Shown piece by piece: positions 18,364 through 24,936 of a DNA stretch of 46,212 nucleotides. Numbering within the stretch: position 1 is the first letter of the stretch; each line of letters starts with the position of its first letter. The position numbers were made by a program, and so were the translations under genes. Origin of the DNA: Gemmatimonadetes bacterium SCN 70-22 (GTDB lineage: Bacteria; Gemmatimonadota; Gemmatimonadetes; Gemmatimonadales; Gemmatimonadaceae); the NCBI GenBank assembly GCA_001724275.1, contig MEDZ01000026.1:1-46212 (forward strand), in the 5' to 3' direction. Below the pieces are notes generated by a model. The model ran no database searches. It was not told the origin of the DNA and worked only from the letters and a program-made list of their open reading frames with translations.

Positions 18364-18687
18364 CTACGGCACTTGCCACTCGAATACCCCGTTGAGGACC
18401 ACACCGTCACGGGTGTACGAGCGCGAGCCATCGGCGAGCGTCGCACGGAGGCGCACCGTGCTCCCCGCAGGGACTCCACGCACCGGGACCAGCTCGGTGC
18501 TGCCAGCGGCGACCGACCTGAGGGTGAGCTCCGTCCCGGCATACGTCACGTAGACGGTCACGGCCTGCGAGGCATTGTTCGTGACCTTCAGGGAGACTTC
18601 GACGGCGGCGGCCGGGGCGGTCTCGACCGTGACCTGCCGCGAGCACGCAGCCATCGAGAGCATTGCCACGAGGAGGAATCTGCGCAT
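18364..18687 (-). CDS. Hypothetical small lipoprotein
   Basis: This 107-residue lipoprotein has a short signal peptide and lipobox SMAAC with Cys15. The mature part is beta-rich (VEVSLKVTNNASQAVTVYVTYAG, then STVRLRATLADGSRSYTRDG) and looks like one small Ig-like or C2-like domain. A longer frame starts at 18762, but the signal sequence at MRRFLLVAML favours ATG 18687. It is divergent from the serine hydrolase gene with 109 bases between them, and precedes the PIP synthase operon on the same strand. Confidence 0.78.
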   Translation of the reverse strand: MRRFLLVAMLSMAACSRQVTVETAPAAAVEVSLKVTNNASQAVTVYVTYAGTELTLRSVAAGSTELVPVRGVPAGSTVRLRATLADGSRSYTRDGVVLNGVFEWQVP

Positions 18688-18796
18688 GAGCTTCCGGGGT
18701 ATGAGGGTGATGACGCACGATCTTGTCGGCGGAGACCCTTGCGGGCGAAGGTGCTCCCACACGAGCGTTCGCGCAACTCTTCACGCCACACACGCG

Positions 18797-20101
18797 ATGC
18801 CCGTACATCCCGTTCCGTCGAACCGAGGGGCGAAGGCGCCGTTCCAGGGCCGGTCGTTCCACCGGCTGGTCGCCGGAGCCTTCCCCCCCCTCGCCCTGCT
18901 CCTGGCCTCGACCGCGTGCCGACTTCCGGGCCAGGGACCTTCGATCCCCCCACTCCCCCGCGTGAGCGCCGAGGCCGCGGCCGCGCGCCGGGTCGACGTC
19001 GCGGAGCTGCAGGGGAGACTCGAGCGCGTCCTGCGGCAAGCGATGCGCGATTCGGCGTTCCCGGGGGCCATCGCCCTCGTGGGGAGCCACGACGGGATTC
19101 TGGCGCAGGCGAGCGTCGGGCACCTCGACGCTGCCGACCCCACGGTCCCGAACGAGCGGACGCTCTGGGACCTGGCCTCGCTCACCAAAGTGGTGGGGAT
19201 GACGTCGGGAGTGATGCGCCTGGTGCAGGAGGGGAAGATCGACCTCGACGCCCCGGTGCAGCGCTACCTCCCCGAGTGGACCGGACGATGGAAGGACCAG
19301 GTGACGGTGCGGCACCTCCTGACGCACTCGTCGGGTCTCCCATCGTGGCGCCCCCTGTACAAGGAGGCCAACTCGGCGGCCGAGGCGATGCAGTTGGTGT
19401 TCGCGACCCCGCTCGACACGCTCCCCGGGGTGCGCATGGTCTACAGCGATCTCGGCGCGATCCTGCTGGGGCAGATCGTGACGCGGGTGAGCGGCACCTC
19501 GTTCGACGCGTACGTCACGCGAGAGGTCTTCCGCCCGCTCGGGATGCGTGAGACGCGCTGGCTTCCTCCCCGGTCGCTGGTGAAGCGGATCGCACCGACC
19601 GAGGTCGACCCTTGGCGCCAGCGCCACCTGCGCGGCGAGGTGCACGACGAGAATGCGTTCGCGCTCGGCGGGATCTCGGCACACGCGGGGCTCTTCTCCA
19701 CGGCGGCCGATCTTTCGCGCCTCGCGCGCATGTACCTGGGGCACGGGCGCCTGGACGGGGTCCAGGTGCTGGATTCGGCGACCATCGAGCGGTTCACGGC
19801 GCGGCCGAACTCGTCGCTGTCTCACCGGGCGCTGGGATGGGAGAAGCCGAGCGGATCGAACTCGGCCGGGCACCGCATGTCTGCGGCCGCGTTCGGGCAC
19901 ACCGGCTTCACCGGGACGTCCTTCTGGGTCGATCCGGGGAACGACGTCTTCGTGATCCTGCTGACCAACCGGGTGAACCCGACCCGGCAGAACACGAAGA
20001 TCGGTCAGGTCCGGGTCGCCGTGGCGGACGCGGTGCTCGGGACGCTGGAGGGGTGCGCCGAAGGAGCGACCGTTCTTGAATGCCCCGGGGGCGCACGTTA
20101 G
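18797..20101 (+). CDS. Serine hydrolase of the beta-lactamase/class C family (lipoprotein)
   Basis: This 434-residue protein has a lipobox-like end to its signal sequence (LASTAC, Cys41). The catalytic SxxK motif is Ser128-Leu-Thr-Lys131; the YxN position is YSD (VYSDLGAILLG), and the KTG-equivalent is HTG (FGHTGFTGT), the usual pattern of EstB-type esterases and penicillin-binding-like hydrolases rather than true beta-lactamases. It probably acts at the cell envelope on an ester or peptide. The start at 18797 gives a plausible signal peptide; the frame is open to 18575. The last bases of this gene contain the minus 10 element for the downstream iscA promoter. Confidence 0.88.
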   Translation: MPVHPVPSNRGAKAPFQGRSFHRLVAGAFPPLALLLASTACRLPGQGPSIPPLPRVSAEAAAARRVDVAELQGRLERVLRQAMRDSAFPGAIALVGSHDGILAQASVGHLDAADPTVPNERTLWDLASLTKVVGMTSGVMRLVQEGKIDLDAPVQRYLPEWTGRWKDQVTVRHLLTHSSGLPSWRPLYKEANSAAEAMQLVFATPLDTLPGVRMVYSDLGAILLGQIVTRVSGTSFDAYVTREVFRPLGMRETRWLPPRSLVKRIAPTEVDPWRQRHLRGEVHDENAFALGGISAHAGLFSTAADLSRLARMYLGHGRLDGVQVLDSATIERFTARPNSSLSHRALGWEKPSGSNSAGHRMSAAAFGHTGFTGTSFWVDPGNDVFVILLTNRVNPTRQNTKIGQVRVAVADAVLGTLEGCAEGATVLECPGGAR

Positions 20102-20104: not shown

Positions 20105-20152
20105 CACGAGCAGTCCAGTCGCAATTTGCGATCCGTCGCAATGGAGGAAAAC

Positions 20153-20509
20153 GTGAGCACCAATCTGGAACCGGAACTGCTGGTCACTGTCACCCCGGGC
20201 GCCATCGTCGAGGTGAAGCGCTTCATGGAGGCCGAAGGGGTGGCCGCGGAGGTCGGGGGCCTGCGCGTGTCGGTGCAGCCCGGCGGCTGCAGCGGCTTCA
20301 AGTACGGGCTGCTCATCGAGGACCAGCCCGCCGACGACGATTACATCCTGCCGCAGGATGGGTTCCGGATGTTCGTGGACCCGTTCTCGGCGCAGTACAT
20401 CAACCAGGTCATCATCGATTATGTCTCGTCGATGCAGGGGTCCGGGTTTACATTCAAGAATCCCAACGCCACCGGCGGCTGCGGGTGCGGTAGCTCCTTC
20501 TCTGCCTAA
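20153..20509 (+). CDS. A-type iron-sulfur cluster carrier (IscA/ErpA-like)
   Basis: This 118-residue HesB-type protein carries Fe-S clusters to target enzymes. The three expected cysteines are in QPGGCSGF and the C-terminal GGCGCGSSF. I prefer GTG at 20153 because GGAGG sits five bases upstream; an in-frame ATG at 20141 would add four residues but would overlap that ribosome site. The gene has its own promoter inside the end of the preceding gene. Its TAA stop lies within the word GCCTAACG discussed in the findings. The amino-sugar gene starts six bases later. Confidence 0.92.
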   Translation: MSTNLEPELLVTVTPGAIVEVKRFMEAEGVAAEVGGLRVSVQPGGCSGFKYGLLIEDQPADDDYILPQDGFRMFVDPFSAQYINQVIIDYVSSMQGSGFTFKNPNATGGCGCGSSFSA

Positions 20510-20515
20510 CGAACC

Positions 20516-22468
20516 ATGACTCCAACGGCTCCAGGCGTGGTCACCACGCCGGGCGCCGCCGCGACGGACGAGGCCCGCGATTTGTTGTCGACGAATCGCG
20601 GGCCTTCGCATGTGCACGCCGGCGACGCCCACGCGCGTGAGCGCATTCCCACCATCGTCGTCGACGAGCACGAGGATATCGCCCGCCTCGTCGCCGCGCG
20701 CATCGCCGCCATCATGCGCGACCGGGCGGCCAGCGGGCGCGCGTGCGTCCTCGGGCTGGCGACCGGGTCGACCCCGATCGGCGTGTACCGTGAGCTCATC
20801 CGGATGCACCGCGAGGAGGGGCTCTCGTTCCGGCACGTGGTGACGTTCAACCTGGACGAGTACTACCCCATGCAGCCGGACAACGTGCATTCGTACGTCC
20901 GATACATGTGGGAGAACCTGTTCGCGCACATCGACATCGACCGGGCCAACGTCCACATCCCGCGGGGCGACATTCCGCGCGGCGAGGTGGAGGCACACGT
21001 GCGCGCCTACGAGGACGCGATCCGGGCCGCCGGCGGGATCGACTTCCAGATCCTCGGGATCGGGAAGACCGGGCACATCGGCTTCAACGAGCCCGGTTCG
21101 GGGGCCGAAAGCCGGACCCGCCTCGTGACGCTGGACATGATCACGCGCCGCGACGCGGCGGCCGATTTCTTCGGTGAGGAGAACGTCCCCCGCGAGGCGC
21201 TGACGATGGGGGTGGCGACGATCCTCGCGGCGCGCGAGATCGCGATCCTGGCCACCGGCGAGCACAAGTCGGCGATCGTGCGGCGCGCGGTGGAGGGGGA
21301 GATCGCCATCGACGTGGCGGCGACGTTCCTCCAGCGGCACCCGGCCACGACCTTCTTCGTGGATCGCGCCGCAGCGGCCGACCTGACGCGTATCGCGACG
21401 CCATGGCTCCTCGACGAGGTCACGTGGACGGAGCAGCTCACGATCCGCGCGGTGGTCTGGCTCTCGCTCAAGACCGAGAAGGCGATCCTCAAGCTCACGC
21501 AGCACGACTACGCCGAGCACCATCTATCGTCGCTCGTGGCCCGGTTCGGGAGCGCCGGCGAGGTGAACGGGCACGTCTTCAACGCGTTGGGCGCCAAGAT
21601 CAAGGGACGCTCGAAGCTCCCGCAGGGCAAGCGCGTCATCTGCTTCTCGCCGCACCCGGACGATGACGTGATCTCGATGGGGGGAATCCTGCGCAAGCTC
21701 GTCCTCAACGAGAACGACATCACGGTGGCGTACATGACGAGCGGGAACATCGCCGTCTTCGACCACGACGTGCGCCGCTACGTGGACTTCCTGGTGCGAC
21801 TGGCCCACGACCGTTCGCTCGACGTGGCGGCCATCGAGGCGATGCGCGATCGCGTGTACGGCTTCCTCGCCGCCAAGCACCCGGGCGACGTCGACACCGC
21901 CGAGGTCCAGGACATCAAGCGGATCATCCGCGAATCCGAGGCCATCTCGGGCATCGAGACCATGGGCCTGACGAGTGCGGCGGCGCGCTTCCTGAACCTT
22001 CCCTTCTACCAGACGGGGAAGGTGCGCAAGGACCCCATCGGCCCGGCCGATATCGCGATCGTGCGGGCGCTGATCGAGGAGAAGCGGCCGGACATGATCT
22101 TCGTTGCCGGCGACCTGTCCGATCCGCACGGGACGCACCGCATGTGCAAGGAGGCGATCGAGGCGGCGCTGCACGCGCTGCGCGGCACGACGACGCCCAT
22201 CCCCGAAGTCTGGCTGTACCGCGGGGCGTGGCAGGAGTGGCCGATCACCCAGGCCACCTGGCTCGTCCCGATCTCGCAGGACGAGCTGAAGCTCAAGATC
22301 CAGGCGATCTTCAAGCACCAGTCGCAGAAGGACTCGGCGCCGTTCCCCGGCCAGGACGACCGCGAGTTCTGGCAGCGGGTGGAGGCCCGGAACAAGGACA
22401 CCGCCGCGCTGCTCGACCGCCTCGGCCTGGCGGAGTACTTCGCCATGGAGGCGTATGTCGTCATGTAA
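20516..22468 (+). CDS. Glucosamine-6-phosphate deaminase fused to a PIG-L/LmbE deacetylase domain
   Basis: This 650-residue fusion has an N-terminal NagB domain (about residues 45-320) and a C-terminal PIG-L domain (about 372-640). NagB landmarks: ATGSTP (82-87), NLDEYY with Asp114, and the loop GKTGHIGFNEPGS, where His187 and Glu192 are kept but the equivalent of E. coli Asp141 is Thr185. PIG-L landmarks: SPHPDDDVISMGG (His380, Asp382-384) and DPHGTHRMC, the metal-binding His pair. This is the long NagB type known from Bacteroidota. Deamination of GlcN-6-P gives fructose 6-phosphate; the second domain could remove an acetyl group. It heads a three-gene sugar operon. Confidence 0.9.
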   Translation: MTPTAPGVVTTPGAAATDEARDLLSTNRGPSHVHAGDAHARERIPTIVVDEHEDIARLVAARIAAIMRDRAASGRACVLGLATGSTPIGVYRELIRMHREEGLSFRHVVTFNLDEYYPMQPDNVHSYVRYMWENLFAHIDIDRANVHIPRGDIPRGEVEAHVRAYEDAIRAAGGIDFQILGIGKTGHIGFNEPGSGAESRTRLVTLDMITRRDAAADFFGEENVPREALTMGVATILAAREIAILATGEHKSAIVRRAVEGEIAIDVAATFLQRHPATTFFVDRAAAADLTRIATPWLLDEVTWTEQLTIRAVVWLSLKTEKAILKLTQHDYAEHHLSSLVARFGSAGEVNGHVFNALGAKIKGRSKLPQGKRVICFSPHPDDDVISMGGILRKLVLNENDITVAYMTSGNIAVFDHDVRRYVDFLVRLAHDRSLDVAAIEAMRDRVYGFLAAKHPGDVDTAEVQDIKRIIRESEAISGIETMGLTSAAARFLNLPFYQTGKVRKDPIGPADIAIVRALIEEKRPDMIFVAGDLSDPHGTHRMCKEAIEAALHALRGTTTPIPEVWLYRGAWQEWPITQATWLVPISQDELKLKIQAIFKHQSQKDSAPFPGQDDREFWQRVEARNKDTAALLDRLGLAEYFAMEAYVVM

Positions 22469-22480
22469 GGGACGCGGCTG

Positions 22481-24004
22481 ATGGGGAGCTTCACGCTACT
22501 CGACATCGCCGTCCTCGTGCTGTACATGGGCGGGACGACGGCGCTCGGGATCTGGCTGGGGCGGGGGCAGAAGAGCGCGCGCGACTACTTCGTCGCCTCG
22601 CGTGCCATTCCCTGGTGGGCGATCCTGTTCTCCGTCGTCGCGACCGAGACCAGCGCGCTGACCTTCATCTCGATCCCCGGGCTGGCGTACCTCGGCGACT
22701 TCTCGTTTCTCCAGGTGGTGCTCGGCTACATCGTCGGGCGCATCGTCGTGTCGTACGTCCTCCTCCCCCGCTATTTCCAGGGGGAGCTGGTGACCGCGTA
22801 CGCGCTGCTGGAGCGCCGGTTCGGGCTCACGACGCGCCGATTCGCGTCCATCACCTTCATGGTGACGCGGGCCTTCGGCGACTCGGTGCGCGTCTTCGCG
22901 ACGGCGATCCCCGTCGCGCTCATCCTCGGGCCGTCCGTCCCGGCCGAGTACGTGATGCCGCTCTCGATCCTCATCCTCGGGGCGTTCACCGTCGTGTACA
23001 CCTACGAGGGGGGGATGCGAGCCGTCGTCTGGACCGACGTGGTGCAGACCGTGGTGTACCTGCTGGGGGGGATCGGGGCGGTCTGGCTGATCGGGAGCGG
23101 CGTGGAGGGAGGATGGTCGGCCGTGCTCGACCGGGCCGCGGGCGCAGGGAAGCTGCGCATCTTCGACTTCTCGACCGACGTGAGCAAGCCGCACACCGTG
23201 TGGGCGGGAGTCATCGGCGGCGGGTTCCTCTCCATGGCGTCGCACGGCGCCGACCAGCTGATCGTGCAGCGCCTGCTCGCGGCGGCGTCGCTGCGCGACG
23301 CGCGGCGGTCACTGATCGGAAGCGGGTTCGCCGTGCTGGCGCAGTTCACGCTGTTCCTCTTCATCGGCATCGGGCTCTACTCGTACTACCAGGCCCGCAC
23401 CTTCCCGAAGCCCGACGAGATATTCCCGACGTTCATCATCGAGGTGATGCCGCCGGGGATGACGGGGCTGGTGGTGGCCGCCATTCTCGCGGCGGCCATG
23501 AGCACGGTCTCGGGTTCGCTCAACTCGTTGTCGGCGGCGACGACGCACGACATCTACCTCCCGCTCACCGGGAAGCGGGCCGACGATCCGGCCGTCTTCC
23601 GGGCCGGCCGGATCTTCACGCTGCTCTGGGCGGTGATCCTCATCGGGGGGGCCCTCCTCTACAAGAACCAGGGGACGCCGGTGGTGGTGGTGGCGCTCTC
23701 CATCGCGTCGTTCACGTACGGCGGCTTGTTAGGCGCCTTCGCGCTGGGACTCGGATGGCGGCGCGCCAACCAGCGCGACGCGATCACGGGGATGGCCGTC
23801 GGGATCGCGACGATGACGTTCGTGGTCTTCGCCAAGCAGCTCTCGTCCGCTTATCCTTCGCTCGCGTCATCACTCGGCCCGCTGGCCCGGATCGCCTGGC
23901 CCTGGTACGTCCTCATCGGCACCACCATCACGTTCATCACCGGCATGCTGTCGTCACTCACCCATCCCGCGCCCGCCACCGTTCCCGGCAGGGACAAGGC
24001 ATGA
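22481..24004 (+). CDS. Sodium:solute symporter (SSS family)
   Basis: This 507-residue membrane protein has about thirteen hydrophobic helices and family signatures such as SARDYFVASRAIPWWAILFS, VATETSALTFISIPG and the later AMSTVSGSLNSLSAATTHDIY. SSS members import sugars, amino acids or sialic acid with sodium. Placed between the NagB/PIG-L fusion and a GlcNAc-kinase-like gene, it most likely imports an amino sugar such as GlcNAc. It starts 12 bases after the fusion's stop, and its own stop overlaps the kinase ATG (ATGA). Confidence 0.92.
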   Translation: MGSFTLLDIAVLVLYMGGTTALGIWLGRGQKSARDYFVASRAIPWWAILFSVVATETSALTFISIPGLAYLGDFSFLQVVLGYIVGRIVVSYVLLPRYFQGELVTAYALLERRFGLTTRRFASITFMVTRAFGDSVRVFATAIPVALILGPSVPAEYVMPLSILILGAFTVVYTYEGGMRAVVWTDVVQTVVYLLGGIGAVWLIGSGVEGGWSAVLDRAAGAGKLRIFDFSTDVSKPHTVWAGVIGGGFLSMASHGADQLIVQRLLAAASLRDARRSLIGSGFAVLAQFTLFLFIGIGLYSYYQARTFPKPDEIFPTFIIEVMPPGMTGLVVAAILAAAMSTVSGSLNSLSAATTHDIYLPLTGKRADDPAVFRAGRIFTLLWAVILIGGALLYKNQGTPVVVVALSIASFTYGGLLGAFALGLGWRRANQRDAITGMAVGIATMTFVVFAKQLSSAYPSLASSLGPLARIAWPWYVLIGTTITFITGMLSSLTHPAPATVPGRDKA

Positions 24005-24936
24005 GCATCACCATCGTCGCCGGAGTCGATGGTGGCGGCTCGCGCACGCGCGTGGTGATCGCCGACGAGAGCGGGAGGGAGCTGGCCACGGCGGAGGGCG
24101 GGCCAAGCGCGGTCCGCCCCGGCGAGGCCGAGCGCTCGGCCGAGGTCATCGCCGCCGCGGTGCGGGAGGCGCTGGCGTCCTGTCGGATGGCCGACGTCGT
24201 CCCCAAGGTCCTGGTGGCCGGGGTGGCGGGCGCGGGACGCGACTCGGAGCGCGACGCCCTGTGGCAGGCGCTGCTGGCACGCGAGGTGGCCGAGGATGTC
24301 TCGGTCCAGCCCGACGCGATGATCGCGCTCGAGGATGCCTTCGGCGACGGCCCGGGGCTCATGGTGATCAGCGGCACCGGATCGGTAGGCTTCGGCCGCG
24401 GGCCGGCCGGGGCCTTTGCCCGCGTGGGCGGCTGGGGACCGGCATGCGGCGACGAGGGAAGCGGCGCATGGATCGGCCGCCGGGCGCTCAGCATCGTGAC
24501 GGCGTCACACGACGGGCGCGAGCCGGAAACGCAGCTCTCCGGCGCGATCCTGACGGCGGCCGAGGTGAACGAGGTGCCGGAGCTGGTGGCGTGGGCTGCG
24601 GGCGCGACCCCGGCCACGCTCGCGACGCTGGCACCGGTGGTGCTGAGCGTTGCGCACGGAGGCGACCTCCGGGCCAACTCGCTCGTGACGCTGGCGGTGG
24701 AGGAACTGGTGCTGCACGCGCGCACGCTCGCGCGCCAGCTGTTCGGTGACGAGCGGGCCGCCGTCCCTCTCGCGTTAGGCGGCGGACTGCTGGCGAAGGG
24801 ATCGCTGTTGCGCAAGCGGATGGTCCACCGTCTCAAGTCGGCCGTCCCTGGCGCCCAGCTGCGCGAGGAAGAGGTCGTCCCGGTACGGGGGGCGGTGCGC
24901 GCGGCGCTCCGCCTCCTCGGGGCCACCGCGGCCTAG
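24001..24936 (+). CDS. N-acetylglucosamine-kinase-like ATPase (BadF/BadG family)
   Basis: This 311-residue ASKHA-fold kinase has the first phosphate loop DGGGSRTRVVIAD, the second SGTGSVGFGRG, and GGWGPACGDEGSGAWIG, the motif set of mammalian and bacterial N-acetylglucosamine kinases. The family also includes activator ATPases of dehydratases, but those have an Fe-S cluster, absent here. The ATG at 24001 overlaps the transporter stop by four bases. Position in the operon supports phosphorylation of imported GlcNAc to GlcNAc-6-P; muramic acid or another hexosamine is possible. Confidence 0.87.
   Translation: MSITIVAGVDGGGSRTRVVIADESGRELATAEGGPSAVRPGEAERSAEVIAAAVREALASCRMADVVPKVLVAGVAGAGRDSERDALWQALLAREVAEDVSVQPDAMIALEDAFGDGPGLMVISGTGSVGFGRGPAGAFARVGGWGPACGDEGSGAWIGRRALSIVTASHDGREPETQLSGAILTAAEVNEVPELVAWAAGATPATLATLAPVVLSVAHGGDLRANSLVTLAVEELVLHARTLARQLFGDERAAVPLALGGGLLAKGSLLRKRMVHRLKSAVPGAQLREEEVVPVRGAVRAALRLLGATAA

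Follow-up and report, generated by a model that had tools for sequence, protein, structure and literature searches.

The conversion of N-acetylglucosamine-6-phosphate (GlcNAc-6-P) to fructose-6-phosphate is carried out by the combination of NagA, which is an amidohydrolase, and NagB. A group of longer proteins, PRK02122/NF002557, has been described as "glucosamine-6-phosphate deaminase-like protein", an annotation that takes account of the NagB half only and assigns no deacetylase function, and public records name its members nagB. On the side of the deacetylases, the HPDD and HxxH motifs of the LmbE superfamily provide the metal ligands and an Asp serves as the general base, with His154 and His157 in the case of rat PIG-L, whose spacing is matched by His538 and His541 of the protein described here (PMC4101496). 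The archaeal diacetylchitobiose deacetylases (Dac; 3wl4 and 8bgn) belong to this superfamily, and they are stand-alone proteins acting on unphosphorylated GlcNAc2. In Tannerella forsythia, the MurNAc system murT-murK-murQ combines a transporter of the sodium-symporter superfamily with a kinase of the PF01869 family (PMC5790795, PMC10465942). Non-orthologous replacements in the mucin-sugar pathways of gut bacteria have been listed in a comparative study, in which PIG-L is not named (PMC5583593). A search of the open literature, with most subscription papers outside its reach, returned nothing relevant on PIG-L in association with NagB or as a GlcNAc-6-P deacetylase and, as far as this literature shows, the function proposed below has not been described.

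The window analysed here is a stretch of 46,212 nucleotides from Gemmatimonadetes bacterium SCN 70-22, whose draft genome (G000; 4.7 Mb in 84 contigs) is 99.98% complete. The initial annotation had recognized in it a row made of a NagB/PIG-L fusion, an SSS symporter and a kinase, with a 12-base gap and an ATGA overlap between them; Pfam and NCBIfam profiles place all three genes at those positions, and both junctions are as described. The proposal of a three-gene operon stands for these members, but not for its extent, as the block also holds an erpA-like and a beta-lactamase-fold gene upstream (Table 1), the latter ending 24 bases before the former, which in turn is separated from the fusion ATG by 6 bases. 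The fusion, the symporter and the kinase are grouped in 11 of the Gemmatimonadota loci fetched (with the kinase inverted in one of them), and five of these 11 display the full order of beta-lactamase, erpA, fusion, SSS and kinase genes. Since the order is common to relatives, chance is not a plausible explanation for the row. A gene for iron-sulphur insertion (20126-20509) is accordingly found within an amino-sugar row, in relatives as well.

Table 1. Features of the gene block in the window, followed by a divergent protein from other loci.
Feature	Position	Strand	Basis or remark
Beta-lactamase-fold hydrolase, start uncertain	18575..20101	+	best named relative PBP4B (PRK03642, 169 bits, below cut-off)
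ErpA/IscA-like iron-sulphur insertion protein	20126..20509	+	6 bases upstream of fusion; order common to relatives
NagB-PIG-L fusion, 650 aa	20516..22468	+	NF002557/PRK02122; start codon uncertain, conserved part from ~residue 42
NagB domain, residues 47-291	20654..21388	+	Asp114, His187, Glu192 conserved
PIG-L/LmbE (putative deacetylase) domain, residues 373-650	21632..22465	+	Pfam PIG-L; domain fold
HPDDD motif, His380 and Asp383 metal ligands, Asp382 general base (by homology)	21653..21667	+	invariant in 66 sequences
DPHGTH motif, His538 and His541 (metal ligand by homology)	22121..22138	+	alignment; spacing like rat PIG-L His154/His157
SSS sodium/solute symporter, 507 aa; probable GlcNAc and/or MurNAc uptake	22481..24004	+	SSF 148 bits
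BadF/BcrA-type sugar kinase, 311 aa, GlcNAc/MurNAc kinase-like	24001..24936	+	BcrAD_BadFG (PF01869) 114 bits
Divergent ~790-aa protein	L290:9237-11588, L292:6868-9240, L284:592-2940	-	190-198 bits to NF002557, below cut-off

The reading favoured here, to which a probability of roughly 0.7 is given, is that the fusion acts as a two-step enzyme replacing both NagA and NagB, with the PIG-L domain deacetylating GlcNAc-6-P. Briefly, the symporter would import GlcNAc and the BadF-type kinase would phosphorylate it to GlcNAc-6-P, a compound that MurQ, fed by AnmK and a MurNAc kinase, would also provide. The PIG-L domain would then remove the acetyl group to give glucosamine-6-phosphate, which the NagB domain would convert into fructose-6-phosphate and ammonia. 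The overall conversion would be the same as that of NagA plus NagB, but the deacetylation would be entrusted to a metalloenzyme of the PIG-L/LmbE fold, unrelated to NagA and joined to NagB. The channelling of the intermediate between the joined domains, put forward in the initial annotation, would be a speculative addition to this reading.

The fusion matches NF002557 over its full length (907.9 bits, with a cut-off of 384) and shares the architecture of these proteins from end to end; it is a member of an existing, widespread subfamily of already known architecture and not a local curiosity. Its start codon is uncertain, because residues 1-36 are predicted to be disordered and conservation starts near residue 42. 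Regarding the NagB half, Pfam Glucosamine_iso covers residues 52-262 with 74 bits, over the gathering score, the score to the nagB equivalog TIGR00502 exceeds the cut-off (256.3 versus 236.9 bits), and the model of the domain superimposes on B. subtilis NagB (2bkv) with an rmsd of 1.1 A. Asp114, His187 and Glu192, invariant in the 66 fusion sequences aligned, are presumably the equivalents of the catalytic D72, H143 and E148 of E. coli NagB, while Thr takes the place of E. coli D141 in the fusion, as Asn does in the B. subtilis enzyme. These features suggest that the NagB domain is active.

The PIG-L half is recognized by Pfam PF02585 between residues 376 and 551 (60.8 bits, gathering score 28.2). 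His380 and Asp382, the residues previously pointed out for mutagenesis, are indeed present and, together with Asp383 and His541, are invariant in the 66 fusions, which come from several phyla. The catalytic residues of this half are kept in 79 of 82 fusion copies from Bacteroidota. Mean pairwise identity among the 66 sequences reaches 0.62 in the NagB part, compared with 0.58 in the PIG-L part, values close enough to indicate that both halves are under similar constraint. The closest solved relatives of the domain by sequence are the archaeal Dac enzymes, at low similarity (29 bits), and they are also found by fold search; the PIG-L fold and the HPDD motif are common to both. The domain in the window, unlike these enzymes, is fused to NagB. 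A dead PIG-L motif was observed in second fusion copies of three Bacteroidota genomes (L257, L259 and L261, in G401, G464 and G412, respectively), which carry the D382A change next to an intact NagB motif, with His538/His541 also changed in two of the three. Each of these genomes holds an intact fusion copy as well; the PIG-L part is the more diverged half in the dead copies and the more conserved one in the intact copies.

As for the supply of GlcNAc-6-P, the window genome encodes MurQ (362 bits) with AnmK and a protein carrying a GH3 domain as neighbours, and it also contains a GH20-M20-NamZ row and several matches to GH20. From the presence of MurQ, AnmK, GH20 and NamZ, GlcNAc-6-P should be made in this organism, with supplies expected from the breakdown of peptidoglycan as well as of GlcNAc-glycans. 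The presence of MurQ is not in itself proof that the deacetylation step is needed: in twelve of the Gemmatimonadota sampled, MurQ occurs although nagA is lacking and nothing matches the fusion model.

The initial annotation had the operon take up GlcNAc, which turns out to be too narrow, as the pairing of an SSS symporter with a BadF-type kinase is found in the MurNAc system murT-murK too and, in this genome, MurQ and AnmK would bring GlcNAc-6-P to the same enzyme. Both the transporter beside a PF01869 kinase and the route to GlcNAc-6-P recall the Tannerella system, a likeness at the level of families; in contrast to it, the neighbour of the symporter and the kinase in the window is the fusion, and MurQ is found on another contig. 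Because the Tannerella MurNAc transporter and kinase come from the same two families, MurNAc is a possible substrate, and the operon may serve it as much as GlcNAc, both leading to GlcNAc-6-P. The kinase reaches 112.5 bits to NagK_SO3507 (NF046058), whose cut-off is 370, and passes that of the broader PF01869; its best solved relative is the MurNAc/GlcNAc kinase 8zo3 (106 bits). A relative of the symporter, with 44-45% identity, adjoins AnmK and a fusion in locus L187. The probable substrates of both proteins are assigned from these relationships.

Outside the phylum, the fusion was found in Bacteroidota, Planctomycetota, Ignavibacteria, Rhodothermales and Balneolaceae. The strongest single argument for its function derives from Flavobacteriaceae (Maribacter, Robiginitalea, Eudoraea, Muriicola and Flagellimonas), where it is part of a recycling locus with MurQ, a DeoR-type regulator, often a GHL10 protein, an AmpG-family transporter, a NagZ-like GH3 and AnmK: a search with TIGR00221 found no nagA in those genomes, and deacetylation is the sole step missing from the recycling sets. 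Other copies adjoin GH18, GH20, AnmK or an SSS transporter. This context bears on a first alternative, in which the PIG-L domain would deacetylate an unphosphorylated sugar, GlcNAc or chitobiose, as the archaeal Dac enzymes do, and the kinase would phosphorylate glucosamine to supply NagB with glucosamine-6-phosphate. The action of the closest solved relatives on diacetylchitobiose and the fact that the operon has a kinase of its own, of putative specificity, speak for it. However, the Flavobacteriaceae loci linked to MurQ and AnmK deliver to this step a sugar that already carries its 6-phosphate, the fusion partner NagB acts on a phosphosugar, and the best named relatives of the kinase are GlcNAc and MurNAc kinases, so that this alternative is considered unlikely.

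Against the favoured reading, the fusion and nagA are not mutually exclusive: of the 77 Bacteroidota genomes with the fusion, 20 also contain nagA, and the same holds for 19 of the 46 other fusion-bearing genomes, to which named loci had led, among them many Planctomycetota and some Hymenobacter. The idea that they exclude each other everywhere was consequently discarded. In one Bacteroidota genome (G362), nagA directly adjoins the fusion gene. Such coexistence, side by side in this instance, would fit a second alternative, in which the PIG-L domain serves some other acetylated glucosamine conjugate, for instance a bacillithiol-type precursor, or plays a structural or regulatory role, the protein being simply a NagB. 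The dead PIG-L motif of the three paralogues and a weak similarity to the bacillithiol deacetylase BshB1 point in the same direction. Nonetheless, the latter amounts to 22.2 bits against a TIGR04001 cut-off of 182.5, the catalytic residues are retained in nearly all copies, and the context of GlcNAc/MurNAc catabolism recurs across several phyla, all of which makes this second alternative improbable.

That the window lacks nagA, as noted initially, was confirmed, and the genome-wide search that had been suggested was performed with two profiles and found none in the 4.7-Mb genome. With TIGR00221, the best match in it scored 25.8 bits (cut-off 225.65). This search has a blind spot, since the B. 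subtilis nagA used as a control was missed at E 1e-15, and a second profile was built for this reason from 15 NagA-like sequences and run on 80 genomes. It recovered the nine genomes with known matches (best E 6.7e-87 or better) and yielded nothing in the window genome or in the other nagA-less genomes among the 80. Within Gemmatimonadota, profile searches placed the fusion over the cut-off in 157 of 249 genomes, and none of the 157 contains nagA or any nagA-like match above ~40 bits to TIGR00221, including the single-contig genomes G019 and G039, although such counts of presence and absence are not independent of phylogeny. NagA-like matches above 100 bits occur in only six of the 249 genomes, which belong to a different class and encode NagB as a separate protein. 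These clear nagA-like genes are confined, among the sampled genomes of the phylum, to family f10 (G001, G003, G005, G007, G009 and G011), whose nagA genomes also present many matches to GH20 but none to MurQ. A third alternative, that deacetylation is due to a nagA that escaped both profiles through sequence divergence or that falls in a gap of the assembly, could appeal to the 84 contigs of the draft and to the missed control but, given the absence in all 157 fusion-bearing genomes and the performance of the second profile, it is very improbable. The replacement of NagA by the PIG-L domain has thus gained support from the nagA-less genome, the enzymes making GlcNAc-6-P, the intact and conserved PIG-L residues and the context in other phyla, and the part concerning the operon substrate had to be widened. 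GlcNAc-6-P is, on these comparative grounds, the probable substrate of the domain.

A further observation, which speaks against the favoured reading, is that seven of the 16 Bacteroidota with a separate NagB only, as well as G119 and G175, have NagB with neither nagA nor the fusion. Six of these seven encode a divergent protein of ~790 residues with NagB-like and PIG-L-like parts (Table 1), in which the FNEP motif is replaced by FNVR. It is also present in some genomes with nagA, and in G372 it is accompanied by a separate NagB, GH20, DUF4954 and an acetate-CoA ligase-like gene. From its sequence, it may represent another branch built on the same principle. In its broadest form, the proposal would be that of a widespread non-orthologous replacement of NagA, consisting of a PIG-L-fold GlcNAc-6-P deacetylase fused to NagB, that serves the recycling of peptidoglycan and chitin sugars in Gemmatimonadota, Bacteroidota, Planctomycetota and other phyla, with the ~790-residue proteins as a second branch able to coexist with a separate NagB; this wider view is held to be somewhat more probable than not.

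If the proposal is correct, a second activity has been missed in a large family of annotated enzymes, GlcNAc-6-P joins the substrates of the LmbE superfamily through a bifunctional enzyme, and automatic pathway reconstruction wrongly scores the catabolism of GlcNAc and MurNAc as broken in many Bacteroidota and Gemmatimonadota.

Finally, most fusions from Bacteroidota without nagA retain Arg542, the residue that follows His541, and most of those accompanied by nagA have another residue there. The use of Arg542 as a marker of nagA absence was rejected, as the tree reduces the pattern to essentially one clade (four changes) and independent pairs give a median p of 1. In G362, the locus in which nagA lies beside the fusion (L180:6006-10347) has Glu after His541, with epimerase-like and MFS-like genes nearby; these two gene names were given by eye and not by profile, and the locus is possibly of the sialic-acid type.
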